Source: Hahella sp. (lineage in GTDB: Bacteria > Pseudomonadota > Gammaproteobacteria > Pseudomonadales > Oleiphilaceae). Taken from it: a stretch of 60,187 nucleotides of DNA. Of the stretch, positions 6,829 through 60,187 are shown piece by piece (positions within the stretch are counted from its first letter, which is position 1; each line of letters opens with the position of its first letter). The notes below the pieces were generated by a model. That model was not told the DNA's origin. It worked only from the letters and a program-made list of their open reading frames with translations, and did not search any database. The DNA is taken from assembly GCA_028280065.1 (NCBI GenBank), contig JANQMN010000148.1, forward strand, positions 1 through 60,187, given 5' to 3'. The position numbers and the translations under genes were made by a program.

Positions 6829-9252
6829 CTAGCTGATTATCTCCGTTGCCGGCCTGCGATTGAGTCTAAGAGCGTTGAACACCACCAGGAGTGAACTCGA
6901 AGACATACCGATTGCGGCAGCATAAGGCGGTACCAAGCCGATAGCTGCCAAAGGCAGTGCGATTAAATTATAACCGACCGACCAGCAAATATTCTGCCTG
7001 ATTATTCGCGATGTTCTTTGTGCCTTGTCAAAAGCGTAACTAAGGGTCTTTAAGTTGCCGCTCAATAATAGAGCATCCGCCTGCAATTGAGTGAGATCCG
7101 AGGCATTGTTCATGGCAATGGAGAGATCCGCGCCCGCCATGACCGGGACATCGTTAATGCCGTCTCCCACCATCGCAAGAATGTCTCCTTCGCTTTGAGA
7201 TGCTTTCAAGGTTTCCAGTTTCTGCTGGGGTGACTGGTCTTTTTTGAAACGGCCAATGCACAATTGCCTGGCGACAGTTTCGACTTGCCCTGAACTGTCG
7301 CCTGAAAGAATGCTGCTTTTGACGCCAAGGCCATCGAGCTCTGTTATCAATTCCGGGGCTTCTGTACGAAGGCTGTCCGAAAGTCTGAGTTCGGCAAGAA
7401 GATGGGAGTCACGACTGAGGTAGATAGTGAGGGCGGTATTGCCAGTCGGTTCAGTAACTTCAGGTTGTTCCAGAGCGAACCTTTGCTTGCCTAGACGATA
7501 TTCCCGGCCGTCAATCATGCCACTGACGCCCTGACCCGATAAATGCTCGATATCTTCTGCCGGTCGATTGGCAAAGGGTTTCAGAGTTTGCGCGATCGGA
7601 TGGCGACTGTACCATTCGAGTGCCCCGGCGATGGCCAGAATTTCTTGTTCGGACAGGTTGCTCAGATTATTGATTTCCTCCAGTTGCAAATCACCATGGG
7701 TGAGCGTTCCGGTCTTGTCAAAAACAAAATGGTTGGTTTTGGAAAGCGTTTCCAAGGTATGGCCGCGGGTAATCACAAAACCTGCTTGGCGAAGTGCAGT
7801 CGTGGCCGCTGTTAGGGCAGTGGGGGTCGCCAGAGAAAGGGCGCAGGGACAGGTGACCACCAGTACTGCGAGGGTAATATCAAAGGCTCTCGACGGCTCC
7901 AATTGTGACCAAACCAACGCCACGACAGCGGCGACGATAAGTACACCTGCAACGAAATAGCTCGCCACCCGATCGGCCATTAACGAGATTTTAGGTTTTT
8001 CCTGAACTGCCCGGTCAACCAGTCGATTAATCGTGGCGAGATGTGAATCGTTACCAATCGCGGTGACACGCAATATGACCTTATTGTCGATAATGACACT
8101 GCCACTCAACAACTGTTGGCCGGGGCGGCGTTTTTGAGGAGCGAACTCCCCTGTAATTGCTGCTTCATTCACATCGGTTTCGCCGCTTTCAATAATGCCG
8201 TCCACCGGAATCAGATTGCCTGGCTGTAACTCGATAAGTTGACCCGGCTGCAGATCCTGTACCGGTATCAACTCGCCTTTTTCGCTGTTTTCATCGGCTA
8301 GCAACCTTACAAATGAAGGCGTTTTGGAACGTAGGAGGTTGTTGCTTCGCGCTGAGCTAGCTCTTGCCCTGCTTTCCAAATAGCGGCCGAGAAGCAGGAA
8401 AAACGTGAACATGCAAACCGACTCGAAATAAACTTCCTCGCCTCCTGCCAGCGTGACCCAGGCGCTTGCCAGAAAAGCGCCGCCGATTGCCAGGGAAACA
8501 GGAACATCCATCGTGAGGTGTTTGACTTTAAGGTCGCGCCAAGCCGCCTGAAAAAATGGTTGGGCTGCGTAAAACACCACGGGAAAGGCGACTAAAAGGC
8601 TGATGTAGCGAAACAGGTCGATGAAATTTTGGCTGTCCTCCAGCAAACCGAAATACATAGGCACCGCCAGCATCATATTTTGCATCATGCCGATACCGGC
8701 CACGCCAAGCCGCACCAGCATTTGCCTTTGCTGATCGCGAAGCTGGATTTCTTCCGCGCCGACTTTATAGGGAGTGGCCTTGAAGCCGATGGTTTGGATA
8801 GCTTTGAGTATATCGCTGAGCGGCGTAGCGGTTTGCCGCCAGATAAGTTCGGCACGGTGCGTTGACAGGTTTATCCAGAACTCGACAACTCCGCCGAGCT
8901 TTTTAACATATTGTTCGATCAGCCAGACACAGGCTGCACAGGTAATGCCTTCGATAAGTAATTCAATGCGCCGTGAATCCTGGTTTTTGGTTTCCGCCAG
9001 ATCCGACAACAGGTCACTGCGATTGTAAAGCGCCAGATGTTCTTCGTCTTCCGGTTCCAGTTGGCCCGGAATAGTTAACCGGCTGTCCCGGAATTTATAG
9101 AATTCGTCCAGTCCGCCATTGAGGATCAGGTTGGCAACGGCCTGGCAACCTGAACAGCAAACCGGATGGGTTAGCTCTGCAACCCGGACTTGTAGCTGCA
9201 TGTGTTCAGGAACAGGATTGTTGCAGTGATAACAGAGAGATGCTTCAGCCAT
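6829..9252 (-). CDS. ccoI: copper-translocating P1B-type ATPase for cbb3 assembly (CcoI/FixI)
   Basis: The 807-residue inner-membrane ATPase exports Cu(I) to the periplasm for delivery to the CuB site of CcoN. Visible in order: N-terminal Cys pairs (CYHC at 7-10, CCSGC at 32-36) that mark the CcoI/FixI subfamily, a heavy-metal-associated domain with GITCAACV, membrane helices, the actuator motif ITGE, the ion-binding CPC in VTCPCALSLATPTA, the phosphorylation site DKTGTLTHG and the hinge GDGIND. The ATG at 9252 (MAEASLCYHC) was chosen because it begins just before the first Cys pair and overlaps ccoH by only 8 bp. An in-frame start 19 codons upstream would extend into ccoH. Confidence 0.95.
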   Translation of the reverse strand: MAEASLCYHCNNPVPEHMQLQVRVAELTHPVCCSGCQAVANLILNGGLDEFYKFRDSRLTIPGQLEPEDEEHLALYNRSDLLSDLAETKNQDSRRIELLIEGITCAACVWLIEQYVKKLGGVVEFWINLSTHRAELIWRQTATPLSDILKAIQTIGFKATPYKVGAEEIQLRDQQRQMLVRLGVAGIGMMQNMMLAVPMYFGLLEDSQNFIDLFRYISLLVAFPVVFYAAQPFFQAAWRDLKVKHLTMDVPVSLAIGGAFLASAWVTLAGGEEVYFESVCMFTFFLLLGRYLESRARASSARSNNLLRSKTPSFVRLLADENSEKGELIPVQDLQPGQLIELQPGNLIPVDGIIESGETDVNEAAITGEFAPQKRRPGQQLLSGSVIIDNKVILRVTAIGNDSHLATINRLVDRAVQEKPKISLMADRVASYFVAGVLIVAAVVALVWSQLEPSRAFDITLAVLVVTCPCALSLATPTALTAATTALRQAGFVITRGHTLETLSKTNHFVFDKTGTLTHGDLQLEEINNLSNLSEQEILAIAGALEWYSRHPIAQTLKPFANRPAEDIEHLSGQGVSGMIDGREYRLGKQRFALEQPEVTEPTGNTALTIYLSRDSHLLAELRLSDSLRTEAPELITELDGLGVKSSILSGDSSGQVETVARQLCIGRFKKDQSPQQKLETLKASQSEGDILAMVGDGINDVPVMAGADLSIAMNNASDLTQLQADALLLSGNLKTLSYAFDKAQRTSRIIRQNICWSVGYNLIALPLAAIGLVPPYAAAIGMSSSSLLVVFNALRLNRRPATEIIS

Positions 9253-42593: not shown

Positions 42594-44678
42594 TTATCCT
42601 TGCAGTAGCTGTAGCACCTGCTGCGGCTGTCCGTTTGCCTGTGCCAAGATCGATAAACCTGCCTGCTGCAATACCTGGGATCTAGACAGTTCCGCTGTCT
42701 CGGCGGCAAAGTCCGCATCCTTGATTCGCGAATTCGCGGCGGTGAGGTTTTCTACTGTAATCGCCTGGTTGGCGATGGTGGATTCAAAGCGGTTTTGAAT
42801 CGCACCTAAGTTGGCGCGCTGGAGGTTTATGGTATTCAGGGCATTATCGACGGAATCCAGGGCCAGAATTGCACCGTCCACGGTGCTAATATCAATGTCT
42901 TGAACAAGTTGCCCCCTCTCATTGGAGCCGTAAGTACCAACTTCGAACCCGGTTCTGGAAATCTTGTTAGTAATGGAGCTTAACTCTATTTGTCCAGCGG
43001 ACTGCAGTGTAAGGGTGCTCTGCGTTGGATTTGTTAATACCAAGTTGACCCCTCCACTATCCACTAATCCAATGTTGGCTTGGTTGAAGGTACCGCTGTT
43101 AACGGTCAAATTATCGATGAATATGTTTCGACCGTCGTCAGCCAGTAGTCTAAAAGTATCTCCCAAAGCTTCTGCTCGCACGCCCGTTTGGCCGGCTTTG
43201 TTATTTATTGCAGAAATGATGGTGTTTTGCTTATCTGCGCCGGTATCTGCCGCGCTGTATGCAATGTTGATGGTTACTCCATTTATATCAATACTGCCCG
43301 AACCATCTGCCCCCGTAGTGATTGCGCCACCATTTAGTGCGGTGGCATTAACAATCGCGGTTACGCCGGTTTGTTCTGAAATTAGGTTGATCGCTTCCGC
43401 CTTTGCAATCGCGCTTGAATCTCTTCCTGTGCTTGATGCAGTATCGAATGACGCCAGCGTCGGACCGACAGGAACGCCGTTGATAACGAGATCACCGGTT
43501 AATAGGGCCTCGTTGTTTACCTCTTGTCCTACCGCTCCGCTGTTGTTTCCGCTGAACTCACCTACTGCAAGGCCCGCGTTGGAAATATTGCCGGTTGTTG
43601 TATCCAGGCCTATGGAGGTGCCATCGGTCGAGATAAGCGTAAAGCTTCCCGAGTAGGTCGTCGCTGCCGCTATCCCGGCACCTGCCAAAACTGCTGCACC
43701 GCCTCCGATTGCGATGTTCCTGCCATCATCTGCACTAAGAGCGATACCAGTCGCCACGTTGCCGCTAAAGGACGCTGTAACGCCCGTCTGACCGGACCGT
43801 TCATTTATCACCGTGACGATTGATTCCAAGTTGGATTCGTCGGATACGGTGGCCGAGGCGGCAATATTGATAGTGACGCCATTTAGCGTGATTGCACCGC
43901 TTGCTGCCGCAGCGCTGAAGGTGGTAGTGCCGCTAATGGTAGTATTGTTGACTACGGCTTCGACACCGGTTTGGTCGGATACCTGGTTGATAGCGGCTAC
44001 TTTGGCAATCGCAGATTTTTCCTGTTCAATACTTGAAAAGGCATCATCCACACCGCTGGATGCGCCTACCGCAATGCCGTTAATCACTAAATCGCCAGCA
44101 GCCATTTGGGCAATGGTTTGTGTCGTTCCACCTTGTTGGTCAGAGCTGATGCCATCAGTATTGGCCGCGCCTAGCTGATCGACAGTGGCACCTTCGATGC
44201 CGAAGGTAACGCTTTCTCCTTCATTGGCGCCGATTTGAAAAGTGACATCGGAGAAAGTGCCGTCCAATAACTTCGTCCCGTTAAAGTTGGTTTGGTCGGA
44301 AATACGTTTAATTTCTTCCTTAAGTTGCTGAACCTCCTGATTCAGCGCTTCTCGGTCTATTGCGCTGTTAGTGGCATTTGCAGACTGAAGCGCCAAATCC
44401 CGGATTCGCAAGAGCCCCTCTGTCATTGCACCCAATGCGCCTTCGGCGGTTTGCGCAAGTGAAACGCCGTCACCGGAGTTACGAATTGCGACGTTCAGAC
44501 CTCTCACCTGTGATGTGAACCGCGTAGATATCGCAAGGCCGGCAGCATCGTCTTTGGCGCTGTTAATGCGGAGACCGGAAGACAGTCGCGACAACGCAGT
44601 TTGGTTGGCAGCCTGGGACGAATCCAGGTTGCGTTGTGCGTTAATCGACGCAATGTTGGTATTAATTATTTGAGGCAT
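42594..44678 (-). CDS. fliC: flagellin, large variant with duplicated central domain
   Basis: 694 residues, clearly longer than the 270-500 usual in gammaproteobacteria. The N-terminal D0/D1 (MPQIINTNIASINAQRNL, LSRLSSGLRINSAKDDAAGL) and C-terminal D1/D0 (ANSRIKDADFAAETAELSRS, SILAQANGQPQQVLQLLQG) are fully conserved. The centre contains two copies of a module: GDLVING at 195 and 395, NGVTINIA at 266 and 466, and ADDGRNI at 316 and 513, an almost exact 200-residue period. The modules carry flagellin hook-IN-like sequence and are Ser/Thr-rich, giving many potential O-glycosylation sites for the pse products encoded nearby. Only a single flagellin gene is in the window. A sigma-54-type promoter lies upstream. 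Confidence 0.96.
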   Translation of the reverse strand: MPQIINTNIASINAQRNLDSSQAANQTALSRLSSGLRINSAKDDAAGLAISTRFTSQVRGLNVAIRNSGDGVSLAQTAEGALGAMTEGLLRIRDLALQSANATNSAIDREALNQEVQQLKEEIKRISDQTNFNGTKLLDGTFSDVTFQIGANEGESVTFGIEGATVDQLGAANTDGISSDQQGGTTQTIAQMAAGDLVINGIAVGASSGVDDAFSSIEQEKSAIAKVAAINQVSDQTGVEAVVNNTTISGTTTFSAAAASGAITLNGVTINIAASATVSDESNLESIVTVINERSGQTGVTASFSGNVATGIALSADDGRNIAIGGGAAVLAGAGIAAATTYSGSFTLISTDGTSIGLDTTTGNISNAGLAVGEFSGNNSGAVGQEVNNEALLTGDLVINGVPVGPTLASFDTASSTGRDSSAIAKAEAINLISEQTGVTAIVNATALNGGAITTGADGSGSIDINGVTINIAYSAADTGADKQNTIISAINNKAGQTGVRAEALGDTFRLLADDGRNIFIDNLTVNSGTFNQANIGLVDSGGVNLVLTNPTQSTLTLQSAGQIELSSITNKISRTGFEVGTYGSNERGQLVQDIDISTVDGAILALDSVDNALNTINLQRANLGAIQNRFESTIANQAITVENLTAANSRIKDADFAAETAELSRSQVLQQAGLSILAQANGQPQQVLQLLQG

Positions 44679-45117: not shown

Positions 45118-47301
45118 ATGCAGAAAAATGAGCCACCTCATCCGGCGCAAAAGTATTTGAATGTTCGCGCTAAAAACCTTGCTTTTTTTAAACGAGTCTA
45201 TCCTGGGATTTACGATTACTTCAATGGATATGAGATGCAGCACAGCAAGGTGGATATCCTTCCGGACGCCGGTGAAATTGATATTTTAGTGGATAATTGC
45301 CATGTTTATAGAGGAGCAAGTGGCGACTATGCCAAACGTGAAGTAGCCACTTTTCTTTCGGCTTTTGACTATGGGGTGAAGATCAAATCAATTGGACCGT
45401 TAGAAAAAGATACCTATAAAAATCCACGTTTTTTTGCGCGTTCAATAGCGAGTGTGTATCACGAGTATTACCGCCAGGAACGTGTATTTAGTGGTTATGA
45501 GTTGAGCAACTTTTTCCCTCTCATGGTATTTATGGGGGTAGGCCTTGGTAAGCACATAGATATTGTCCGCCAAATTCGTGATATCCGGCACGCGCTGCTA
45601 TTTGAAACAGATATGGACCGCTTCGCAGCAAGCCTATACGCAGTCGACTGGCAGGAAATTATTCAACCTTTTTTCCAGGATGGAAGAAGGTCGTTCAATT
45701 TCATATTGTTGCCGGGCGGGGTGGATGAAGACCAGATGCAGGCTGGCTTATGGAATCAGTTAATTAAGTACTGTCCAATCTTTCCGGTCACCTGCATGTT
45801 CTATAACCACTCTGGGCATCCGGTATATGATCGTATCATCGACAAAGTAAACTCAGATCTATATGTGCATCTGTTTTCTTTCGGTAATTTTGATGACGAA
45901 CTGAATCAGCTCAATAATGCACTTCATAATTTTAGATCCGATATTAAGCTGTTCTTCCGGCCGCCACAAAATTTGAAAAGTATACCAATCTGTGTCGTGG
46001 GATCTGGTCCCAGTCTTGATAAGCGGATTGAGGAACTGCGTCAGCTTAGCAAACATGCCATCGTCATTTCATGTGGATCTGCGCTTGCCGCACTTCATAA
46101 GCACGGCGTTGTGCCGGATTTGCAGATTGAGCTTGAGTCAGATTACACGACGTACGCTTTGCATTGCCAGTTAGATGACCCGGAATATTTGAAGTCCATA
46201 AAACTCTTGGGGGCCGCGCAACTCAACCCGCTTTTATTTGAAATTTTTGGTGAAAGTAGACTGTTTTTCAAAGATGATGGGCCTCTTGCACATTGGTTCG
46301 CCAATCCCAACGTTTCAATACCCAATGCAACTCCAACCTGCACTAACGCCGCGTTGGCATTGGCTTCGCTGATTGGATCTAAGCAGGTTTACCTGTTTGG
46401 CCTCGATTATGGTTTTCCCGATCTTACGTCGCATCACGCCACTGGAACCGTCTATTACAAAGAAAACCTAAAAAAGCACTCTGAAATCAACGAACAGGAT
46501 GTCATCTATGTACCTGCGGCTGCAGGTGGCACAGTGGCAACCACCACTTTTCTGTATACCGCGAAAAGGAGAACGGAGAACCTGTTACAGGCTATGGCCG
46601 GTGTTCAGGTTTTTAACTGTTCAGACGGAGCCAGTCTGGATAAAACTACGTGGCTGGCTAGTGCCGATGAACAGCAGGCCAGCCTGGATGTTCCTGAGTT
46701 AGCGAAGAAGGAGTTTATTGAAGCGATCTTCGCGGTCACTCATTCTCCATTGCCACGACCAAAAACCGAGTTAATAAAGAAGCAGGTAATCGTTCAGCTA
46801 ACGGCTTTTACTGAAAGTCTAAAGAAACTGGCAAATGAAGCGCCTGCTACACTAGCAGGATATACGGATCTGTGTTCAAGAGTTGGCCAAGCATTGCAGG
46901 TACTGGAGCAGCAGAATAAAGGGCTATACTACTTTACTCGGGGAAGCATCTGGCATTTTCTATTGGCTGGTTACACCCACGTGTTCAGTATGAACTCTAC
47001 CAGTGAACAGGCCGAATACCTTGATTACTGGACGGGGATATTCGTTTCCTTTTTAACCGGTCTCACTGGGAAGACTAAAGGTGTTACAGAAAAGCAGAAA
47101 TCGATATACGATGACGATATGGTATCCCGCCCCATTTTCTGGACCACAGATGCAGATTCTGAAGATATTGCTCAGGTTGAATGGACTTATACCGGTGTAA
47201 GAGTTGAGGAAGGTCGTCTCGTTATGGAACTGAGCGAGTGGCAATTTGAAGGCTATGGATTTGATGGCGAGAAGTACGTTCGATATGAAGACTTGCCTTG
47301 A
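45118..47301 (+). CDS. Maf/DUF115-type flagellin glycosyltransferase
   Basis: 727 residues of the motility-accessory-factor family (DUF115, 6-hydroxymethylpterin pyrophosphokinase MptE-like core). The central DUF115 block is clear: IPICVVGSGPSLDKRIEEL, HAIVISCGSALAALHKHGV, PDLQIELESDYTTY, then TCTNAALALASLIGSKQVYL and FGLDYGFPD. Maf proteins transfer activated pseudaminic or legionaminic acid to Ser/Thr of flagellin in the cytoplasm before export. Its place between flagellin and pseBC fits this exactly. It has no membrane segment. Confidence 0.9.
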   Translation: MQKNEPPHPAQKYLNVRAKNLAFFKRVYPGIYDYFNGYEMQHSKVDILPDAGEIDILVDNCHVYRGASGDYAKREVATFLSAFDYGVKIKSIGPLEKDTYKNPRFFARSIASVYHEYYRQERVFSGYELSNFFPLMVFMGVGLGKHIDIVRQIRDIRHALLFETDMDRFAASLYAVDWQEIIQPFFQDGRRSFNFILLPGGVDEDQMQAGLWNQLIKYCPIFPVTCMFYNHSGHPVYDRIIDKVNSDLYVHLFSFGNFDDELNQLNNALHNFRSDIKLFFRPPQNLKSIPICVVGSGPSLDKRIEELRQLSKHAIVISCGSALAALHKHGVVPDLQIELESDYTTYALHCQLDDPEYLKSIKLLGAAQLNPLLFEIFGESRLFFKDDGPLAHWFANPNVSIPNATPTCTNAALALASLIGSKQVYLFGLDYGFPDLTSHHATGTVYYKENLKKHSEINEQDVIYVPAAAGGTVATTTFLYTAKRRTENLLQAMAGVQVFNCSDGASLDKTTWLASADEQQASLDVPELAKKEFIEAIFAVTHSPLPRPKTELIKKQVIVQLTAFTESLKKLANEAPATLAGYTDLCSRVGQALQVLEQQNKGLYYFTRGSIWHFLLAGYTHVFSMNSTSEQAEYLDYWTGIFVSFLTGLTGKTKGVTEKQKSIYDDDMVSRPIFWTTDADSEDIAQVEWTYTGVRVEEGRLVMELSEWQFEGYGFDGEKYVRYEDLP

Positions 47302-48370: not shown

Positions 48371-49525
48371 ATGATTTATTATGGTCGCCAGAGCATCAAT
48401 CAAGACGATATCGATGCAGTCGTCTCCGTCCTAAAATCGCCAATGATTACCCAAGGCGAAATGACTGCCCGTTTCGAGCAAGCCATTTGTGAGTATGCAG
48501 GTGCGAAATACGCAGTTGCCTGTAGTCATGGAACTGCCGCCTTGCACTTGGCTTGCCTTTCGCTTGGAGTGGGTGAAGGTGATATCGTCTGGACTGTGCC
48601 AAACACCTTCGTTGCCTCCGCCAACTGCGCTTTGTACTGCGGTGCTTCAATAGACTTCGTTGATATCGATGCATCGACCTTCAATATCTCGATCGTATTG
48701 CTGGAGAAAAAGCTTGTTGATGCTGAAAAGCAGGGTCGGTTGCCAAAAGTATTAATTCCCGTGCATTTTGCCGGCAGTCCTTGCGCTATGGACGAGATAG
48801 GCCGTTTGGCACACCAATACGGATTTAGAATTATTGAGGATGCCTCCCATGCACTTGGGGCATCATTTAATGATAGAAAGATTGGAGCCTGTGAATTTTC
48901 CGATGTTGTCACTTTCAGCTTTCATCCGGTAAAAAGTATAACCACAGGTGAAGGAGGTATGCTGGTTGCTAATGATAAATCCATAGCCGATAAAGCAAGG
49001 CTGCTGGCGAATCATGGGATTACCCGTAATCCTGAATTGATGTCCAAAGAAAATCCGGAACCCTGGTATTATGAGCAGATAGCGCTGGGATATAACTACC
49101 GTATGACTGACTTTCAGGCGGCTTTGGGGCTTAGTCAGGTTAAGAGATTGGATGCATTTATAGAGCAAAGGACCGCAATCGCTGAGATGTATCGGCAGCA
49201 GCTTCGGGGTCTCCCGCTAACTTTTCAGCAAGTTCAACTGAGTGTGAAATCTTCCTGGCATTTGTTTGTTGTTTTACTTAACACATATGATCCTGGGAAA
49301 AAGGCTTATTTGTTTGAGCTTGCCAGATCTTCCGGCTTCTCTCTGAATTGCCATTATAGGCCGGTATATCTGCACCAACATTATTGTAGTGATGGCTTTT
49401 CAGCAGGATACTGTCCCAACTCAGAAGGTTATTTCGAACGCGTATTATCTTTGCCAATATTTAGTGAACTTGACTCGGATTTAGTTAACAAGTTATGCGC
49501 TGTCTTTCGGTCAGTATTTGATTAA
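48371..49525 (+). CDS. pseC: UDP-4-amino-4,6-dideoxy-N-acetyl-beta-L-altrosamine transaminase
   Basis: 384 residues, DegT/DnrJ/EryC1/StrS PLP aminotransferase, second step of the pseudaminic acid pathway. The PLP lysine is in FSFHPVKSITTGEGGML; ACSHGTAALHLACLSLGVG and IIEDASHALGA are typical blocks; NYRMTDFQAALGLSQ is the C-terminal family motif. MIYYGRQSINQDDIDAVV is a usual PseC start. It is fused head to tail with pseB (stop TAA then ATG) and is the last rightward gene before the AT-rich cassette. Confidence 0.95.
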   Translation: MIYYGRQSINQDDIDAVVSVLKSPMITQGEMTARFEQAICEYAGAKYAVACSHGTAALHLACLSLGVGEGDIVWTVPNTFVASANCALYCGASIDFVDIDASTFNISIVLLEKKLVDAEKQGRLPKVLIPVHFAGSPCAMDEIGRLAHQYGFRIIEDASHALGASFNDRKIGACEFSDVVTFSFHPVKSITTGEGGMLVANDKSIADKARLLANHGITRNPELMSKENPEPWYYEQIALGYNYRMTDFQAALGLSQVKRLDAFIEQRTAIAEMYRQQLRGLPLTFQQVQLSVKSSWHLFVVLLNTYDPGKKAYLFELARSSGFSLNCHYRPVYLHQHYCSDGFSAGYCPNSEGYFERVLSLPIFSELDSDLVNKLCAVFRSVFD

Positions 49526-49931
49526 ACTTTAGGGTTATTCTGACAATTTCTTTTTTTGGACAACAAGACGTATAGTGTTTAGCTGATGCTTCGTGGCTTT
49601 AGTTTAGGTGTTTTTCTTTGCTAGATGATGCTAATTTGGGGGAAATTGCATTGTCTATCTCTAAATGATCTTTTTCTGTAGGCTTTCTCACCTCCACTAT
49701 ACAATTAGTAGCTACTAGGTTTTTAACGCCTATCAGAGGGTAGTTTTAGTTTAATAGGACATCCTTCATCGGCGAAGGAAAATGCTGGGGATAGAGTATA
49801 GTAAACTTTTAGATATCCAATTGGTTATGTTGATTTTTTGCTAATTAATTATCCTCCCTTTTTAGTTCTGTAAGGTGTGAATATGTTAATTTATACTTGT
49901 AGTTATAGTTAGACAAATTTATATTAAGTAA
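49526..49931. other. 406-bp AT-rich interval at the left edge of the cassette
   Basis: Lies between the convergent pseC and FkbM-like genes. Base composition falls sharply compared with the sequence to the left. A 12-bp palindrome TAGTAGCTACTA occurs around 49706 and a T7 run near 49551. No reading frame, transposase remnant or terminal repeat was recognised. Confidence 0.5.
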
Positions 49932-51287
49932 CTACTCTAAGCTGAATATTTTTACTTGACTATTTTTGTTTTTAACTAGTGTTATCATTTCCTGAGCGTA
50001 AACTTCTGAAGCAATTAGAACTACCTGGTCGTTTGAGAAGGTGTAATCTGAAATTCCTTTAACAGATTTACCTTGCAAATGTAAATCTAAGTTGTCTGCT
50101 TTTTGATCTATTATGTCATCTATAATAAAACTATGTTTTTCTAATTCTAAAAACAAAGTATTTCCTAGTTCACCCGCTCCGTATATTGCTACTTTATCAA
50201 TGTTGTTCCTTAATAATTGAATAATTAGATCTTTTATTTTGTTTAAAATTATTAGAGAATTATTATCTGGACATGCTTTTTGTAAAAACCTTCCTCCTGG
50301 GAAAAACTCTTGGATATTTTCCTCAAAAGATTTGATGTAGCTATTATAATCATATTCGCCATCGGTCACATCCAGAGCAAGTTGATCTAGAGCGAATTGT
50401 GTATCGATCACATTATCGAGTTGTTCTCTGTACAAAAGTAATATCTCTGCCGAATAATCGTGAACGTCGAACAATGAAGCAAGTAATGCTAATTTGATAA
50501 GTTTAATTTCTGGTAGGTTGCTAAATAAATGCATTGTAGTTGGATTGCATACATCTAAAAAATAAACTGCATCGCCCTGATACGGGCATCCTTTTTTTGT
50601 TTGCGCCGGGATATTCACCACAAATTCAGAAGGTAAAGCGGCTCTAGAGTATTTCCTTACACTCAAATCAGATAGTATAAAATTGTTAATTTTCATGAAC
50701 TTATCGGTATTATAAAAAGAGTGTTCTGTATCTTTTCCGGAGCCATAGAAGTTGACTTCTAATTCAAAACATAAGATCTTCAATTCTTCTATTGCATCCT
50801 TAGTAGAAAGGAGTGTGTGGTAGTCATCGCTGTCAATATCAATCTTTATAGTGTCTATCGTATCGAGGTGACTTTCTTTAATTAAGTCGGGTATAACTAA
50901 GGGCTTTCCATTATATATATCTAATTCTGACCATCGATTTGATTTTAATTTGTCATCATCTTGACTATCAAAAATTAGTTTACTGGCCGCTGATACACTG
51001 AGTCTTTCCCAAGGGTTATTTTCTGTGTAAACTGTGATGCTTTCTTTATCGTTGTATAGCCGACCGATTTTTGCCAATAAATATTTTACAGAAGCTCTTT
51101 TTTCTGATCTTATTAGTCTTTGAATTTCGCTTTTAACAATGTCTACGCCTAATGCTTGAATATCCTCGCCTAGAATCTGCCATCTTGGATGCAGGCCATG
51201 GCTGCAACCAATATCAATAAGGCATAACGCATTGGTACTATTTAATAGCTTGCTGCACACATACTTTGCGAACCTATTTTCTGACAT
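49932..51287 (-). CDS. FkbM-like methyltransferase fused to a Rossmann domain
   Basis: 451 residues. The N-terminal part looks like a SAM-dependent methyltransferase: motif I LCLIDIGCSHGLHP (22-35), then an FkbM-type acidic strand TIKIDIDSDDYHTLL (146-160) and LCFELEVNFYG. The C-terminal 90 residues (363-451) form a Rossmann-like unit beginning DKVAIYGAGELGNTLFLEL followed by a short acidic strand (IIDQKAD) and ending in a VVLIAS strand. The middle region (about 255-350) is unrecognised. Coding sequence is AT-rich: one sampled 60-bp line (50041-50100) holds 19 G/C. It is leftward in an otherwise rightward sugar operon. Predicted to O-methylate or otherwise modify a sugar; the assignment is inference from fold. 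Confidence 0.7.
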   Translation of the reverse strand: MSENRFAKYVCSKLLNSTNALCLIDIGCSHGLHPRWQILGEDIQALGVDIVKSEIQRLIRSEKRASVKYLLAKIGRLYNDKESITVYTENNPWERLSVSAASKLIFDSQDDDKLKSNRWSELDIYNGKPLVIPDLIKESHLDTIDTIKIDIDSDDYHTLLSTKDAIEELKILCFELEVNFYGSGKDTEHSFYNTDKFMKINNFILSDLSVRKYSRAALPSEFVVNIPAQTKKGCPYQGDAVYFLDVCNPTTMHLFSNLPEIKLIKLALLASLFDVHDYSAEILLLYREQLDNVIDTQFALDQLALDVTDGEYDYNSYIKSFEENIQEFFPGGRFLQKACPDNNSLIILNKIKDLIIQLLRNNIDKVAIYGAGELGNTLFLELEKHSFIIDDIIDQKADNLDLHLQGKSVKGISDYTFSNDQVVLIASEVYAQEMITLVKNKNSQVKIFSLE

Positions 51288-51410
51288 TTTTATCCTAATA
51301 TATTATAGTTTTTATATGTAAAATTTTTATAAAGTGTAATCGTTCAATAAGATAGGCAAATAATATTTTGACGTTATTATATAAAACAGTCTTGTATTAG
51401 TTAGATTGCT

Positions 51411-52607
51411 CTAATTATTATGATAAAACTCTTTTATAAGAGCTATCTCTGTATTTTTATTTACCAAACTCTTTATGTTATCCCTCATTTCCTCTCCATG
51501 AGAGAAAGAGCATATTACGACTAACGTGGGATTCATTCTAGAAATATTTCTGTAATGTTCGATCGTTATGTTGTCAATCTTTGTGCCTATTTTTTGATTA
51601 TCTCCATCTAAGATTTCTATTACATTTATTCCTAGTTTCTGTAATTCTTTGTAAAGAACAAAGCCAATCCCTTCAATGCCGTAAATAGTGACCCGTTTAG
51701 TTGAGTGCTCGCTAAGACGCTCTAAGAAAAAATTAACAGAATTTTCGATAAATCCAATATTAGTTGCTCTATTACCAATTAAGGAGGAGGGTGTGGTTTT
51801 CCATGGTTTGTACGTAGTACTATTGATATTAGAAAGATAGAAAAGATGGTCTAGGAATTGGCATTCTTCAGGAATATTCATAGCCGAATAGCTAAGTGGA
51901 TAGTTGAGAAGATTGAAAAAACTGCTAAACTTTAAATTATTCATTAGACACCTATTTTTAAACCATTTGATTCCATCTTCCCAGCTGAATTCTACTAGTT
52001 TTTTTTCCTTACTAGTGTTGCTATCACTGCTACTAACTAACCTAAACTTTTTTTTGCTTTCTCCTTGTATAAAAACTATTTCATCCAAATTTGTATTAAG
52101 GTCAATACTAAAAATATTAAAGACTTCGTCGTTTAATTCCAGATAACCATTAAAGTTGGCGTCTTGAACCATAAAGGCTTTTCTTGATTTAAGTTCTACA
52201 ATTGAAACTACATGCGTTAATGAATCTTTAGGGGAGCCAAAATTATAGGTTGTTGAATCTAAACCAAATAGTTTGTATACCTGTGATAGGTATTTGTTTG
52301 TACCACCACAAGTAGTACCAATTATATCCCTATCATACAATTCGGTGCTTAATAAGACATCGTTCAAATGAACTTGCCAAACCGGTAGTTTGAGCTCTTT
52401 TTGTGTTTTAATGTTAGCTATACGTGTAGTTCTATAAACCCACTCCCTGATAAGGTTTAACGTTAACAACTCAGCGCCTGAACTGTAAGCTTTCTCTAGA
52501 CCTGGCTGTTCATGAATAATTCTACTCTTTAACTTGTCCTTTTTTTTATTCCAAGGGTCCACAAAAGGTTGTCTCCAGTTATGGTTTATGGGTGCATAAT
52601 CCAACAT
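51411..52607 (-). CDS. transglutaminase-like protein fused to a Rossmann domain
   Basis: 398 residues. Residues 95-150 fit the transglutaminase-like (papain-fold) triad: Cys100 in GTTCGGTNKYLSQVYKLFGL, His132 in LTHVVSIVEL and Asp149 in FMVQDANFNGYLEL, in the order and spacing of that superfamily. The C-terminal 95 residues (304-398) begin RVTIYGIEGIGFVLYKEL and resemble the Rossmann unit of the neighbouring methyltransferase. There is no signal peptide, so it acts in the cytoplasm. A transferase or amidase role in building the glycan is inference; it could also be a protease-like acyltransferase. AT-rich like its neighbours and leftward. Confidence 0.65.
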   Translation of the reverse strand: MLDYAPINHNWRQPFVDPWNKKKDKLKSRIIHEQPGLEKAYSSGAELLTLNLIREWVYRTTRIANIKTQKELKLPVWQVHLNDVLLSTELYDRDIIGTTCGGTNKYLSQVYKLFGLDSTTYNFGSPKDSLTHVVSIVELKSRKAFMVQDANFNGYLELNDEVFNIFSIDLNTNLDEIVFIQGESKKKFRLVSSSDSNTSKEKKLVEFSWEDGIKWFKNRCLMNNLKFSSFFNLLNYPLSYSAMNIPEECQFLDHLFYLSNINSTTYKPWKTTPSSLIGNRATNIGFIENSVNFFLERLSEHSTKRVTIYGIEGIGFVLYKELQKLGINVIEILDGDNQKIGTKIDNITIEHYRNISRMNPTLVVICSFSHGEEMRDNIKSLVNKNTEIALIKEFYHNN

Positions 52608-52704
52608 TTTTGGTATTCTATTATATTTTTGTTCATATTTGTGCGACGGCGATGGTTAGAAATCATACTATCAGAGTATGAAAGGTTTAACTGCGGGAGG
52701 ATTC

Positions 52705-53163
52705 TCAGACGACTGTTGTAATTGGGCCGTTATTCAAAGAGGAGGAGTCACTTGACGATGGTTCTGTCACAGAAACAATCTTTAAGTCACACTTTACACC
52801 TCTCTGGCCAGTAAGCGGGTAGTTACAGTCAATTAAGACATCATCTTCGCCAATATTTTTTATGGAGCCCCTTCTTATTTTTCCGTTTAGTTTTGTTGAT
52901 AAGATCATCCCTTCCTTTAATGGACTTTCGCTTTTGATCTTGTTCTTTGGTGCTCTGATCAAAAGAGAGTCATCGTAAAATTCTTCCTTAATTTCAAATG
53001 GAAAGCGTGTTCGGTAGCCAACGGATTTGCTAACAATCTTTTCACGTATGGAAAGGGGAACTTGATCAGGAAACCTGGCTAATATTTCAAATTCTCCAAA
53101 TGACATTAGTCGATTAAATAGTCTGATACGATATCTAACTAAATTACCATTGGAGACATTCAT
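52705..53163 (-). CDS. degenerate SlyD/FKBP-like protein
   Basis: 152 residues. The C-terminal half, LKEGMILSTKLNGKIRR, DDVLIDCNYPLTGQRGVKC and DLKIVSVTE, resembles the insert-in-flap and final strand of SlyD/FkpB prolyl isomerases (compare the family pattern VDGNHPLAGQ-L-F). The N-terminal half aligns weakly (LVRYRIRL, GYRTRFPFEIKEEFYDD, LLIRAPKN), but the usual FKBP GxG and active-site aromatic residues are not seen. It may have lost isomerase activity and act as a binding or chaperone domain. It is AT-rich and the first gene of the leftward cassette; the 97-bp gap to the next gene is small enough for an operon. Confidence 0.6.
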   Translation of the reverse strand: MNVSNGNLVRYRIRLFNRLMSFGEFEILARFPDQVPLSIREKIVSKSVGYRTRFPFEIKEEFYDDSLLIRAPKNKIKSESPLKEGMILSTKLNGKIRRGSIKNIGEDDVLIDCNYPLTGQRGVKCDLKIVSVTEPSSSDSSSLNNGPITTVV

Positions 53164-53283
53164 ACACGGGTTTCCTTTTCGATTTTCTAAAATATGAATC
53201 TAGACTTGTATCTTAAATTTAGAACTTTAGCAATTTCGTGCTATCTATAAAGACTGAGGGCCAGTTTCGTGAAAGAGGAATAT

Positions 53284-53979
53284 ATGCCACCACCGTTTAT
53301 ACTTGCAACAATACCCAGATCAGGAACTCATTGGTTATCCAATATGTTGATTTCGCTTGGTTTAAAAGGAGTCTCGAGATCTAAGCCTGATCTTTCGTAT
53401 GATGAATTAGCCAGTCAAACTAAAGATCAATGCCGAAGATTAAAAAGTCGAGAGTTCTATTTTGATCACATAAGGTATAGTTGGGTAGACGAGATTTTAG
53501 AAGAGATTGATATCAAGGTCCTACTCCTTTATCGAGATCCGAGGGATAATATCATTTCGCAATATTATTACTCAAAGAATAGGCTTGAATGTCTTAGTGG
53601 AAGTTTTGAAGACTCATTTGAAACTATCCAAAAAGAGGCGCTAGTTCATTACAATAAAATTGCTTTGCCTTGGCTTTCACACGGTAACTTACTGCGACTA
53701 AAATATGAAGATCTGGTTACTAATACTGGGGAGTGTTTAAGTAAAATAGCTAATTTTTTAGATATTACTCCTTCAGATAAAATGTTAACTAATGCGATTC
53801 AGCAGTACTGTTTTAAGAAGCTCAGCGATGGTCGCCTCCCTGGCCAGGAGGACCGGCATCACCATTATCGAAAAGGAATTGTCGGCGACTGGAGAAACTA
53901 CTTTTCTGAAACTATCACTGCTAGATACAAAGAAGTTTTTGGCAGTGTCCATGAACAATTGGGTTACGATTTCAAGTGA
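53284..53979 (+). CDS. PAPS-dependent sulfotransferase
   Basis: About 231 residues. The 5'-phosphosulfate loop is PRSGTHWLSNML, the 3'-phosphate motif LLLYRDPRDNIISQYYY, and the C-terminal YRKGIVGDWRNYF is the conserved KxG-x2-GDWKN signature of sulfotransferases. It transfers sulfate from PAPS to a hydroxyl or amine of a sugar or small molecule in the cytoplasm. ATG at 53284 has AGAGGA upstream; a GTG at 53269 with GAGGG before it is also possible. It resumes the rightward direction after the cassette, and its stop overlaps pseF (GTGA). Confidence 0.85.
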   Translation: MPPPFILATIPRSGTHWLSNMLISLGLKGVSRSKPDLSYDELASQTKDQCRRLKSREFYFDHIRYSWVDEILEEIDIKVLLLYRDPRDNIISQYYYSKNRLECLSGSFEDSFETIQKEALVHYNKIALPWLSHGNLLRLKYEDLVTNTGECLSKIANFLDITPSDKMLTNAIQQYCFKKLSDGRLPGQEDRHHHYRKGIVGDWRNYFSETITARYKEVFGSVHEQLGYDFK

Positions 53980-55762: not shown

Positions 55763-56742
55763 TGCCGGAATTTCTATTTCGGACCGATGCTAACGCAGAG
55801 ATGGGGGCAGGGCATCTGGCCCGTTGTACAGGATTAATTGAATGCCTTCGGCAACAAGGTGGCGACTGCGCCATTTACGGTAATGTCAGTAATGAGTTCA
55901 GATTCATGCTGGGACTAAATAGTCCGATGGCAGTTACACCAATCGGTAATCCCGTACCTGATTATAAAGTCCTCGTGGTCGACAACTACAATGAACTAAA
56001 CAATCAATTGGCTGAACTGGCTGTTTGTAATGCTCGCCGCATCGTTCTATTTGAAGACATGGATGATCGTACATCATCTCTGGTTGATGTCGTTATTAAT
56101 CCATTTGGAAATCCGGAAAACTTAAGGCAACGTTTCCCTAAGGCTGCCATCCATACCGGATTGGAATTTTACATCCCCCGGTATCAGGTCTGGCTCCAAA
56201 AAGAGCGTATGTCGAAACGTTTACGATTAAACCCGAATTCCCCGCTAAATTCGAAAGTCCAACCAAAAGCCCAACCAAAAGTGGTCGTATCCCTGGGAGG
56301 CAGTTCCCATCCAGAGTTGGAGCAGAAAATTGTTGAGGTGCTTATAAGCGGATTACCGAATGATGCCCAAATCGAGGTCTTTTCAGCGTATAACGAATCT
56401 AAACAACTAAACAATATTCGTTATAACTCTGGTTTTGCCGGAGACTTTCTGGAAGCCGCTTCTAGTGCTGATTTGGTCGTTTGCGGAGCAGGGCAAACTC
56501 TACTTGAAATGGTGTATTGTCAACGACCGGTCATTGGAGTTTTTATCGCCGATAATCAACGCCGTTGTGCTGAAACGTTAGTTGAATTTGGCGTACCCGT
56601 TATTAATAGAAGCAGTGATTTAACAGAAGAGATTAGCCGGTGTTTGAATCAGTTGCAGCATGGTGAAAGGTTGCAATATCCAGAACACATTGGAAGCGGA
56701 GTGGACCAGTTGGTCAATAATCTGCTGAGTCTGGTCAAATGA
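55762..56742 (+). CDS. pseG: UDP-2,4-diacetamido-2,4,6-trideoxy-beta-L-altropyranose hydrolase
   Basis: 326 residues, GT-B fold nucleotide-sugar hydrolase that removes UDP to release the sugar for PseI. The catalytic His lies in ANAEMGAGHLARCTGLI; VSLGGSSHPELEQKIV and VVCGAGQTLLEMVYCQRPV are the C-terminal UDP-binding motifs. It lies in the TGATG overlap with pseI and overlaps the next gene by 4 bp. Confidence 0.93.
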   Translation: MPEFLFRTDANAEMGAGHLARCTGLIECLRQQGGDCAIYGNVSNEFRFMLGLNSPMAVTPIGNPVPDYKVLVVDNYNELNNQLAELAVCNARRIVLFEDMDDRTSSLVDVVINPFGNPENLRQRFPKAAIHTGLEFYIPRYQVWLQKERMSKRLRLNPNSPLNSKVQPKAQPKVVVSLGGSSHPELEQKIVEVLISGLPNDAQIEVFSAYNESKQLNNIRYNSGFAGDFLEAASSADLVVCGAGQTLLEMVYCQRPVIGVFIADNQRRCAETLVEFGVPVINRSSDLTEEISRCLNQLQHGERLQYPEHIGSGVDQLVNNLLSLVK

Positions 56743-57983
56743 ACATACTACTCACTAGCATTGGTGGAAAAACAAATCTCATCAAGTATTTTCAGCGCGC
56801 GCTTATTAATGAAGGCGGGGGTGAAGTTCATGTAATGGATAGTGATGGGAAGGCAGTCGGACGTTTTTTTGCTGACAAGTTCTACCAGTCTCCCGCGACT
56901 CAGGCCACTCATTTTTATCAGTGGCTATTGAACAAGGTTGAGCAGGAGGGAATAGATCTTATTGTTCCTACCCGTGATGGCGATATGTGCCCTTTATCCA
57001 GTATCCAAACGGAACTGGCAAGTCGTTTTGATTGTCAGGTAATGCTTCCATCAGCGGCTTCTTTGGAAATTTGTATAAACAAGAGGGCGTTTGCCGAGTG
57101 GTGCCGGGAAAATGGTTTTGAATCATTGCCTGAGTTGGATTTAGGAAGTCTTAGCAAGCAAGATTTTCCAGTCTTTATTAAGCCCCGTATAGGGTCAGGT
57201 AGTCAGCGAAGCTTTAAAGTAGAACACTGGGAGCGATGGATGAAGGTCCGGGAAAGTGTGCTGCCATCCGATCTGATTCAACCCTTCTTTGCTTTGCCAG
57301 AATATACTGTCGATATATATATCGATGGCAATGAGCAGGTAGTATCCGTCGTTCCTAGAAAGCGTTTAAAAGTGAGTCATGGTGAGTCAGTGCATGGTGT
57401 CGTGGATTGCGATTCCACGATCATTAGTGAAGTTTCACGTCTTGCAAAAAAGCTTCAATTAGTCGGACACAATACGATTCAGTGCTTCAGAAGTAAAGAC
57501 AGTGTCATTATGATTGAAGTGAATCCTCGGTTTGGAGGTGGATTTACGCTTGGCATCGAAGCTGGTGCAGATACACCCCGCTACCTTGTGCAGGAAAGGC
57601 GAGGGCTTCCCGTGTCTCCTCCAAAAACTTTAGTGGAGGGTCTGCAGATGGTTAGAATCGAAAAAGATATCTTCTTCGGTGGAGACTCATCTGAAAAAGT
57701 CTGGTGTTTTGACCTTGATGGCACTATTTGCACTGAATCATGTGCATATGAAGACGCAAAGCCGGTGGTTCGGGTTGTAAACAGAATTAACGACCTTTAT
57801 CAGAAAGGCCATACCATTATAATCGCAACAGCGAGGGGTGCAGCTAGCGGTAAAGATTGGAGAGAATTGATAGAGTCACAGCTTAAGGTATGGGGAGTAA
57901 TGTATCACCGTCTGGTTACGACAAAACCCTATGCTGATTACTATATTGATAATAAGTCAGTTGATGTCCTGGAATATCTTTAG
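56739..57983 (+). CDS. ATP-grasp / HAD-phosphatase fusion protein
   Basis: 414 residues. About 1-310 is an ATP-grasp enzyme resembling carbamoyl-phosphate synthase-like ligases: FPVFIKPRIGSGSQRSF (ATP-binding) and VIMIEVNPRFGGGFTLG (metal-binding Glu and Asn). About 320-414 is a small HAD phosphatase: CFDLDGTICTES (nucleophile Asp325, acid Asp327), IIIATARGAAS and ADYYIDNKSVDV. ATP-grasp ligases form amides via acyl-phosphates, and the sugar precursor here has free amines, so an N-acyl or amino-acyl decoration of the pseudaminic acid is a reasonable but unproven role. Coupled to pseG by ATGA. Confidence 0.8.
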   Translation: MNILLTSIGGKTNLIKYFQRALINEGGGEVHVMDSDGKAVGRFFADKFYQSPATQATHFYQWLLNKVEQEGIDLIVPTRDGDMCPLSSIQTELASRFDCQVMLPSAASLEICINKRAFAEWCRENGFESLPELDLGSLSKQDFPVFIKPRIGSGSQRSFKVEHWERWMKVRESVLPSDLIQPFFALPEYTVDIYIDGNEQVVSVVPRKRLKVSHGESVHGVVDCDSTIISEVSRLAKKLQLVGHNTIQCFRSKDSVIMIEVNPRFGGGFTLGIEAGADTPRYLVQERRGLPVSPPKTLVEGLQMVRIEKDIFFGGDSSEKVWCFDLDGTICTESCAYEDAKPVVRVVNRINDLYQKGHTIIIATARGAASGKDWRELIESQLKVWGVMYHRLVTTKPYADYYIDNKSVDVLEYL

Positions 57984-59175: not shown

Positions 59176-60187
59176 ATGGATGATACTCAGGATATTAGTG
59201 ACATCCTATCAACATTAAACGTGCCTGGAGAAGACTGGTTCCGACAGCAATTATACGAGCAGGTGTCTGGCAAAAAGGTTGTTTTTTTTGGTGCTTCTGG
59301 TACAGGAAAGTTAGCACTTCGAAATAAACGATCTGATATCCATGTTGATTGCTTTTCTGATAACGATCCGGATAAGTGGAATACCTCCTTTGAAGGCTAT
59401 AAAGTTATTTCACCTGAGGAGTTGGTATCGGGTATTTCGGAGTACTCTGTTTTTATCACTAGCCATTTTTATGACGATATTAGCGCACAATTAAAACGAA
59501 TGGGGATTGAAGAATCAGATATCTCTATTATTTATCATAATACTGAACGTAATCGCCAATACTTCGACTTCCTTAGCAATCATAAGGATAGTATTAAACG
59601 AGTCTGTAGTTTTTTGAGCGATGATTTATCAAAAAAAACCTTAAAAAATATGATACTTGCAAGACTGGGGCATTACCGTAGAGACACGGTAGCCTCTGCG
59701 TCAATTCAACCCCAGTACTTTTTAAGGGAATTTCATGCCAAAGACTTCCAGGTGTTTATTGATGGTGGAGCATATATAGGTGATACCCTCGAGGAATTTA
59801 TCGGCCTTTATGGAGGTGAATTTCAGAACTATTACGCTTTTGAACCAGTAAAGCATCATCTTATATCCATTGAAGAAATTCTTGCCGGTAAGCCTTATGA
59901 ATTTACCGAAAAAGTGAGAATTATTCCCAAAGCTCTATATTCTGAGGAAACCAAACTTTGCTTTGAGGAATGTAGCGAAGGTGCCTCACATATTAGTGAT
60001 TCAGGTACTAATAGAATAGAAGCAGTCGCCTTGGACAACTTGGAAATTCAACCTCCAACATTCATTAAACTTGACGTGGAAGGCTCGGAGTTGAAGGCCC
60101 TTAACGGTATGTCAAACGTCATTCAAAAGTACAGGCCAGCTCTGGCGGTATGCATTTATCATAAATGGCAGGATATATTTGAGCTTC
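59176..60187 (+). CDS. FkbM-family methyltransferase with N-terminal Rossmann domain (partial)
   Basis: The frame runs from ATG 59176 to the window edge, 337 residues without stop, so the C-terminus is missing. Residues 33-125 are a Rossmann-like unit (KKVVFFGASGTGKLA, then CFSDNDPDKWNTSFEGYKV and SVFITSHFYDD). Residues 193 onward are an FkbM methyltransferase: VFIDGGAYIGDTLEEFIGL, YYAFEPVKHHL, FIKLDVEGSELKALNGM and RPALAVCIYHK. Domain order is the reverse of the protein at 49932. FkbM enzymes O-methylate sugars and related compounds. It lies 44 bp after the glycosyltransferase on the same strand. Confidence 0.85.
   Translation, partial: MDDTQDISDILSTLNVPGEDWFRQQLYEQVSGKKVVFFGASGTGKLALRNKRSDIHVDCFSDNDPDKWNTSFEGYKVISPEELVSGISEYSVFITSHFYDDISAQLKRMGIEESDISIIYHNTERNRQYFDFLSNHKDSIKRVCSFLSDDLSKKTLKNMILARLGHYRRDTVASASIQPQYFLREFHAKDFQVFIDGGAYIGDTLEEFIGLYGGEFQNYYAFEPVKHHLISIEEILAGKPYEFTEKVRIIPKALYSEETKLCFEECSEGASHISDSGTNRIEAVALDNLEIQPPTFIKLDVEGSELKALNGMSNVIQKYRPALAVCIYHKWQDIFEL

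Follow-up and report, generated by a model that had tools for sequence, protein, structure and literature searches.

We identified P0001, a gene in a flagellin/pseudaminic acid locus of Hahella sp., as a probable new branch of a known enzyme superfamily in a glycan setting. The encoded protein is probably a cysteine enzyme, from a branch not yet described, that forms or cleaves amide-type bonds, and is best read as a cytoplasmic protein of two domains. The stretch of DNA analysed, hereafter called the window, is 60,187 nucleotides long (contig JANQMN010000148.1). The P0001 reading frame is complete from ATG to stop (start at 52607, stop at 51411) without internal stops, and encodes 398 residues at the coordinates of the initial annotation; it lies on the minus strand, which that annotation had not given. 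The three residues initially claimed as a transglutaminase-like triad were all found at the positions named, that is, C100 (IIGTTCGGTNK), H132 (KDSLTHVVSIV) and D149 (AFMVQDANFNG). No export signal was detected by eye, and the frame leaves at most 16 extra codons upstream. This fits the cytoplasmic location proposed initially, yet two of the three homologues described below look exported by eye. The gene and its parts are as follows.

51411..52607, minus strand: P0001, a 398-aa ORF with a transglutaminase/NAT-like domain and a C-terminal Rossmann unit
51798..52553, minus strand: N-terminal enzyme-like domain, residues ~19–270 (limits approximate), common to the homologues L105, L137 and L138
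51414..51743, minus strand: C-terminal Rossmann accessory unit, residues ~289–398
52308..52310, minus strand: codon of Cys100, the proposed nucleophile, invariant in 4/4 sequences and first residue of a predicted helix (100–113)
52212..52214, minus strand: codon of His132, the proposed general base, invariant in 4/4 within THV, at the start of a predicted strand (131–139)
52161..52163, minus strand: codon of Asp149, the proposed third triad member, Asp in 3/4, directly after a predicted strand (144–148)

The spacing of the three residues taken alone is weak evidence. A loose pattern (C-x27..60-H-x13..20-D) occurred in 6925 of 20000 shuffles of P0001 residues 1–300, and a tighter triad pattern in 86 of 20000. 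The triad rises above chance only because homologues keep Cys and His in all four sequences and Asp in three.

The surrounding locus encodes, in order, a flagellin-like protein, a PseD/Maf-type protein, PseB, PseC, three proteins on the minus strand, a sulfotransferase, PseF, PseI and PseG, followed by an ATP-grasp/HAD-like protein, a glycosyltransferase-like protein and an FkbM protein. P0001 is the middle of the three minus-strand genes after PseC. PseB, PseC and PseF scored above their NCBIfam cut-offs; the names of the flagellin, PseI, PseG, ATP-grasp and glycosyltransferase genes are our assumption, judged from the translations or taken from below-cut-off matches. Together, the ORF list and the NCBIfam matches bear out the flagellin/pseudaminic acid locus described initially. 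The locus appears to build pseudaminic acid-type sugars and attach them to flagellin, and the neighbours of P0001 look like tailoring genes (FkbM-like, sulfotransferase). Three of the surrounding genes are considered further.

42594–44678: flagellin-like gene, named from its translation or a below-cut-off match
45118–47301: PseD/Maf-type protein, matching NCBIfam PseD far below its cut-off
49932..51287, minus strand: P0002, an FkbM-like protein with a C-terminal Rossmann unit, downstream of P0001 across a 123-bp gap and in the same direction

For P0002 itself, no Pfam family matched up to E 10, and three of its relatives scored above the PF05050 cut-off (two in genome G015, one in L105). The GC content was 0.332 for P0001 and 0.338 for P0002, against 0.45–0.48 for PseB, PseC, PseF, PseI and PseG, and the GC3 values of the two genes were 0.32 and 0.30, respectively. 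From this strong AT-richness relative to the Pse genes we infer the lateral arrival of P0001 and P0002, which seem to travel together; we also counted in its favour that an N-terminal homologue of P0001 was recognised in none of the searched relatives. The AT-rich island extends over ~49400–53900 (GC 0.29–0.38, within a locus of ~0.44–0.48) and spans P0002, P0001, a 152-aa gene and the sulfotransferase. The 152-aa protein (52705–53163, minus strand) matched FKBP-type isomerases weakly, with NCBIfam PRK15095.1 at E 2.5e-5 and well short of the cut-off. In the flagellin locus of G015, a lookalike by eye (L055 2737–3234) adjoins the Maf-type gene.

The G015 locus (G015:C1:3520000-3559999, comprising L054 and L055) is a related flagellin glycosylation locus, and includes an FkbM-like pair, a UDP-glucose dehydrogenase-like protein, a Methyltransf_24 protein and a radical SAM protein, with a second similar one by eye. 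G015 gave no match to P0001, which indicates that P0001 is not essential to such a flagellin pathway. This comparison bears on the proposal that P0001 takes the place of the pseudaminic acid N-acetyltransferase PseH. No PseH-type gene was seen by eye in the ORF lists of the window, and the 19 matches in the genome were weak (best 47.2 bits, against a PseH cut-off of 93.1 bits), as such a replacement would predict. However, the PseH step could still be carried out by the weak GNAT matches, the homologues of P0001 sit where no Pse genes were seen, and the G015 locus, by eye, has PseB, PseC, PseF, PseI and PseG with neither a P0001-like protein nor PseH alongside. Because neither was seen in the G015 locus, we consider the replacement very unlikely. 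An ATP-grasp-like protein with an HAD-like C-terminal part lies beside PseG both in the window (56739–57983, plus strand) and in L055 (8957–10204, by eye), with no evident PseH alongside either, and this protein may stand in for PseH by acylating the amino sugar or ligating to it. In Shewanella oneidensis, the flagellin modification operon sfmABCDE includes one methyltransferase gene and one ATP-grasp gene (PMC3765264).

Searches with P0001 itself recognised no N-terminal homologue in pattern scans of genome contigs and viral contigs, in plasmids and phages, or among the sequences of solved structures, where two matches were found (E 0.5 and 1.1). Against 146 relatives, the single match was P0001 itself. 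At the level of the class, 369 genomes gave five matches, four of them besides its own, and 394 genomes of the order of G490 gave four; those inspected were Rossmann parts or noise. Residues 1–300, searched against 390 genomes of the order at E up to 1, gave 32 matches including its own, the next best at E 0.0186; 11 of the 29 other loci were inspected, and all were noise-like. These genome sets (relatives, class, orders) overlap and were counted separately. In PHROGs, one weak match covered the Rossmann part (E 5.4e-4) and one other stood at E 0.15.

Homologues were reached by way of the neighbouring gene, by scanning relatives of P0002 (31 loci) and then inspecting their surroundings. A P0001-like frame stood beside the P0002 relative at one of the 31 loci, L105 of an Opitutus sp. 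MAG; seven loci of related genomes in the same neighbourhood search contained no convincing match. The L105 frame (7741–8685) matched residues 92–181 of P0001 with an E value of 9e-9 among 2177 frames. The P0002 homologue follows 1.3 kb downstream in the same orientation, after an NAD-dependent epimerase; the gene order is the same in Opitutus, with the enzyme domain upstream of the FkbM homologue. Since this adjacency was found by looking there, it counts as support and not as an unbiased count. The L105 locus also encodes a Methyltransf_24 protein and, by eye, two further FkbM-like frames together with UDP-glucose dehydrogenase-like and glycosyltransferase-like frames. The protein encoded directly upstream of the P0001 homologue (L105 5718–7673) is NAD synthetase-like and includes a carbon-nitrogen hydrolase domain. 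L105 4945–14388 and L054 4700–10454 each encode a Methyltransf_24 protein and an FkbM protein resembling P0002, and by eye are also alike in a dehydrogenase and in a long, unnamed protein containing an NP-rich motif; this gene set is perhaps a tailoring cassette found across phyla.

A two-row profile was then searched against the genomes from which 28 of these loci come (L126 lies on the record of L112, L132 shares an assembly prefix with L111, and L135 was omitted). Matches were found in two of the 28 genomes, one being the known Opitutus; the other, the Chloroflexi MAG of L114, holds two homologues, L137 (E 1.5e-21) and L138 (E 1.4e-15). An HMM of the three homologues scored P0001 at 54.9 bits over residues 19–187, whereas the best of 5000 shuffles reached 5.7 bits. 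The L137 gene is convergent with a gene for a radical SAM protein, similar by eye to the ones in the flagellin locus of G015, and the surroundings of L138 contained no evident glycan genes (by eye). The four-row profile matched only the genome of P0001 among 398 genomes of the phylum. It gave nothing below E 0.34 against PDB sequences, where a single homologue alone gave no match, and nothing against viral contigs. The three homologues used as queries against plasmids, and L137, the sole query tried against phages, gave no match.

The homologues are 20–27% identical to P0001. The four-row alignment has 20 invariant positions, including R54, W56, G97, C100, G101, Y111, T131, H132, V133, Q148 and A150. 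The check on homologues proposed initially came out mostly in favour of the triad. Cys100 and His132 are conserved in 4/4 sequences, but Asp149, which directly follows the invariant Gln148, is Asp in three and Gly in the Opitutus protein. In HvyA, a transglutaminase-like protein of Caulobacter, the D241A allele is non-functional (PMC4241560), so the Opitutus protein may be inactive. The same change raises the possibility that P0001 is a catalytically dead or regulatory member, with the fold serving as a binding platform and the Rossmann unit tethering P0001 to other tailoring enzymes. The retention of all three residues by P0001 and both Chloroflexi copies, and the invariance of Cys and His across sequences this distant, argue against this explanation, which we regard as distinctly improbable.

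In its C-terminal part, P0001 has the Rossmann tail that was described initially, here put at about 100 residues. NCBIfam gave weak matches to Rex models (best E 4.7e-5 at 301–358, far below cut-off) and a weak NeuD/PglD match at residues 306–385, and at E up to 10 the only Pfam matches of P0001 were weak ones to ThiF and CoA_binding, both C-terminal. An HMM of nine Rossmann units from other proteins scored P0001 at 53.8 bits, and one of five units found independently of P0001 at 35.4 bits, compared with 12.7 bits for the best of 5000 shuffles in each case. Searches with P0001 drew in otherwise unrelated proteins having just this part in common. Among these are, with names given by eye, a GT2-like protein with a Rossmann unit at L005, whose neighbours, a sulfotransferase-like protein and a third protein, carry similar ends, and an FkbM-like protein at L006. 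Three proteins of the G015 flagellin locus end in such a unit (L054 6032–7444 and 7525–9174, L055 1163–2431; by eye); within the window, P0002 likewise ends in one and the FkbM protein at 59176 begins with one. Set beside these units and the Rex, NeuD/PglD N-terminal and Methyltransf_14 domains, the P0001 C-terminus groups with the units on FkbM-, sulfotransferase- and glycosyltransferase-like proteins, and its matches to the Rex and NeuD models are weak. The three homologues lack it; the Rossmann HMM reported just one of them, at −1.6 bits. Judged from sequence, therefore, the Rossmann half that made P0001 look unusual is a mobile accessory module travelling among glycan-locus proteins, and its pairing with the enzyme-like domain looks modular, because that half is so common among them. 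The N-terminal domains of NeuD and PglD bind nucleotide-sugar, and by analogy the P0001 unit probably docks a nucleotide-sugar, a cofactor or a partner. P0001 differs from the other Rossmann-unit proteins in that its unit is joined to a transglutaminase-like domain, a pairing met nowhere else in searches that were not targeted at it.

Up to E 10, no Pfam family matched the N-terminal ~270 residues of P0001. At the same threshold no family matched any of the four members, PF01841, BTLCP, NAT and the cysteine-protease families included. P0001 was not reported by an HMM of 31 transglutaminase domains, for which the best of 3000 shuffles scored 7.0 bits; this model was built from 31 of 37 loci, six being dropped because the domain was not found by pattern. 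The same genome has nine PF01841 matches, eight of them over the cut-off. Alignment of the four-member family with the 31 transglutaminase domains by hhalign gave E 0.55 and a score of 10.3, compared with up to 20.5 among the best 8 of 150 column shuffles, and the local alignment placed the family Cys on the transglutaminase Cys. The triad proposed initially thus stands as regards the order of its residues, their conservation in remote homologues and the predicted elements, but not as regards recognition by Pfam, our own HMM or hhalign. Since standard transglutaminase models do not recognise P0001, its membership of the superfamily rests on conservation and a low-confidence fold.

Single-sequence AlphaFold prediction of the whole protein gave a pLDDT of 35. 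A second prediction, from P0001 residues 1–273 and the Opitutus sequence only (the two Chloroflexi homologues were omitted), gave a mean pLDDT of 44 and a pTM of 0.47. In blocks of ten residues, pLDDT was 72–83 at 21–60, 65 and 74 at 101–120, and 55 and 57 at 131–150; Cys100 and His132 fall within stretches below 50 (74–100 and 122–132). The predicted elements are a helix that begins at Cys100, a strand at 117–124, a strand with His132 at its start, a strand ending just before Asp149, and strands at 153–159 and 162–167. A helix bearing the Cys, then strands with His and Asp, is the order expected of a papain-like transglutaminase/NAT core.

In a Foldseek search of the PDB with the two-sequence model, no match reached E 0.001, the first standing at E 0.054 with a TM of 0.21. 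Ranks 1, 3, 4, 5 and 8–12 were NATs (4nv8, 4nv7 twice, 4b55, 1w6f), the geldanamycin amide synthase (8osz, 8btm) or 3isr (two chains), so that such rows make up 9 of the 12 best matches and represent five distinct proteins. Staphopain, a NAT and 3isr again at ranks 21, 25 and 26 bring this to 12 of 26 rows, with TM values to the query of 0.14–0.28. The unrelated entries among the first 12 were pea fructose-bisphosphatase, twice, and a PVC spike protein. The viral structure library contained no match below E 0.03. As a control, the single-sequence whole-protein model yielded none of the NAT, amide synthase or protease entries among the 50 rows listed; this control is rough, since the model differs in length and includes the Rossmann part. 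The structure prediction suggested initially as a check leans towards the triad by its order of elements, but at low confidence, with a mean pLDDT of 44, both Cys100 and His132 below 50, and Foldseek matches above E 0.001.

These models suggest, though weakly, the fold and the arrangement of the triad. A different fold, with Cys, His and Asp kept for some other reason, would account for the lack of any link by profile methods (Pfam, our HMM, hhalign), for the frequency of the loose triad among shuffles and for the low model confidence at key residues, but not for the order of predicted elements, nor for NAT, amide synthase and cysteine protease rows being more frequent than with the control model; we consider it improbable. 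A papain-like transglutaminase/NAT fold is, on the models, quite likely for the N-terminal part of P0001.

We compared P0001 with two kinds of described cysteine enzyme and with the transglutaminase core. P0001 has Cys, His and Asp in the same order as that core (PF01841) and did not reach the profile cut-off. Arylamine N-acetyltransferases use Cys-His-Asp for acyl transfer to an amine. These NATs and the NAT-like amide synthases (GdmF) supplied most of the best-ranked Foldseek rows, none significant; P0001 had no Pfam NAT score, and what we take to be the NAT signature around the Cys is absent from its GTTCGGTNKYL. The BTLCP family, which we take to be PF06035, gave no Pfam match to P0001 either, and the likeness to its member HvyA is one of spacing and locus, not of alignment. 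HvyA is a periplasmic BTLCP transglutaminase-like protein of the Caulobacter capsule export locus that restricts capsulation and, like P0001, is a Cys-His-Asp protein from a surface-polysaccharide locus; its C192-H226-D241 spacing is 34 and 15, compared with 32 and 17 in P0001, and the available part of the report mentions no Rossmann unit in it, whereas P0001 has such a unit and, by eye, no signal (PMC4241560). The initial annotation knew of no described sugar-locus enzyme with the pairing seen in P0001. This stands for the pairing as such, as far as the available text mentions no Rossmann half for HvyA, but not for its parts, given that a transglutaminase-like protein is known from a polysaccharide locus (PMC4241560) and the Rossmann unit is common. 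Our literature search found no transglutaminase-like protein in connection with flagellin and pseudaminic acid, with polysaccharide and FkbM, or with a glycosylation island, and the available part of PMC5109656 does not mention transglutaminase.

A hydrolase of the same superfamily is a close rival of the acyltransferase reading. As an amidase, deacylase or protease, P0001 would then trim the glycan, or cut or deamidate a flagellar or surface protein, as proposed for BTLCP (HvyA). Its triad spacing is near that of HvyA, the gene for which sits in a capsule export locus (PMC4241560). Two of the three homologues look exported by eye, L137 with a lipobox-like N-terminus (LLGSC) and L105 with a Sec-like one, and two lipoprotein-type NCBIfam models each matched one of the four members. 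In addition, 3isr, a putative cysteine protease, had the highest Foldseek probability (0.91) among the matches listed. Against this, none of the four members was matched by a Pfam model up to E 10, the cysteine-protease families included, and P0001 itself shows no signal by eye and shares its Rossmann unit with proteins of glycan loci. We consider a hydrolase somewhat unlikely.

A thiol acyltransferase or amide synthase acting on glycan fits the flagellin locus best, and N-acyltransferase is our leading guess for P0001. As we envisage it, P0001 and FkbM-like P0002 would have come in as an AT-rich cassette between PseC and PseF. His132, held by Asp149, would activate Cys100, and the Cys100 thiolate would be acylated by a donor that may be a thioester, an ester or an amide. 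From there the acyl group would pass to an amino group, either of the flagellin glycan or of the activated precursor of that glycan, forming an amide. Acyl transfer to precursors fits the two exported-looking homologues poorly, because nucleotide-sugars and CoA are not expected at their location. Taken whole, the reading of P0001 as a divergent, unnamed transglutaminase/NAT branch with a Rossmann module, laterally acquired and transferring acyl groups to the flagellin glycan, is tentative, with a chance that we put a little below even. A broader version, in which P0001 represents a new family of thiol acyltransferases or amide synthases decorating flagellin nonulosonic acid or surface glycans, in cytoplasmic (Rossmann-fused) and exported forms and linked to FkbM methyltransferases, seems to us rather unlikely. 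If this is true, modified nonulosonic acids could be made by thiol-based acyl transfer, the chemistry of NATs and transglutaminases, as well as by GNAT, formyltransferase and ATP-grasp enzymes, and a function that can be tested would be assigned to a family that Pfam does not cover.
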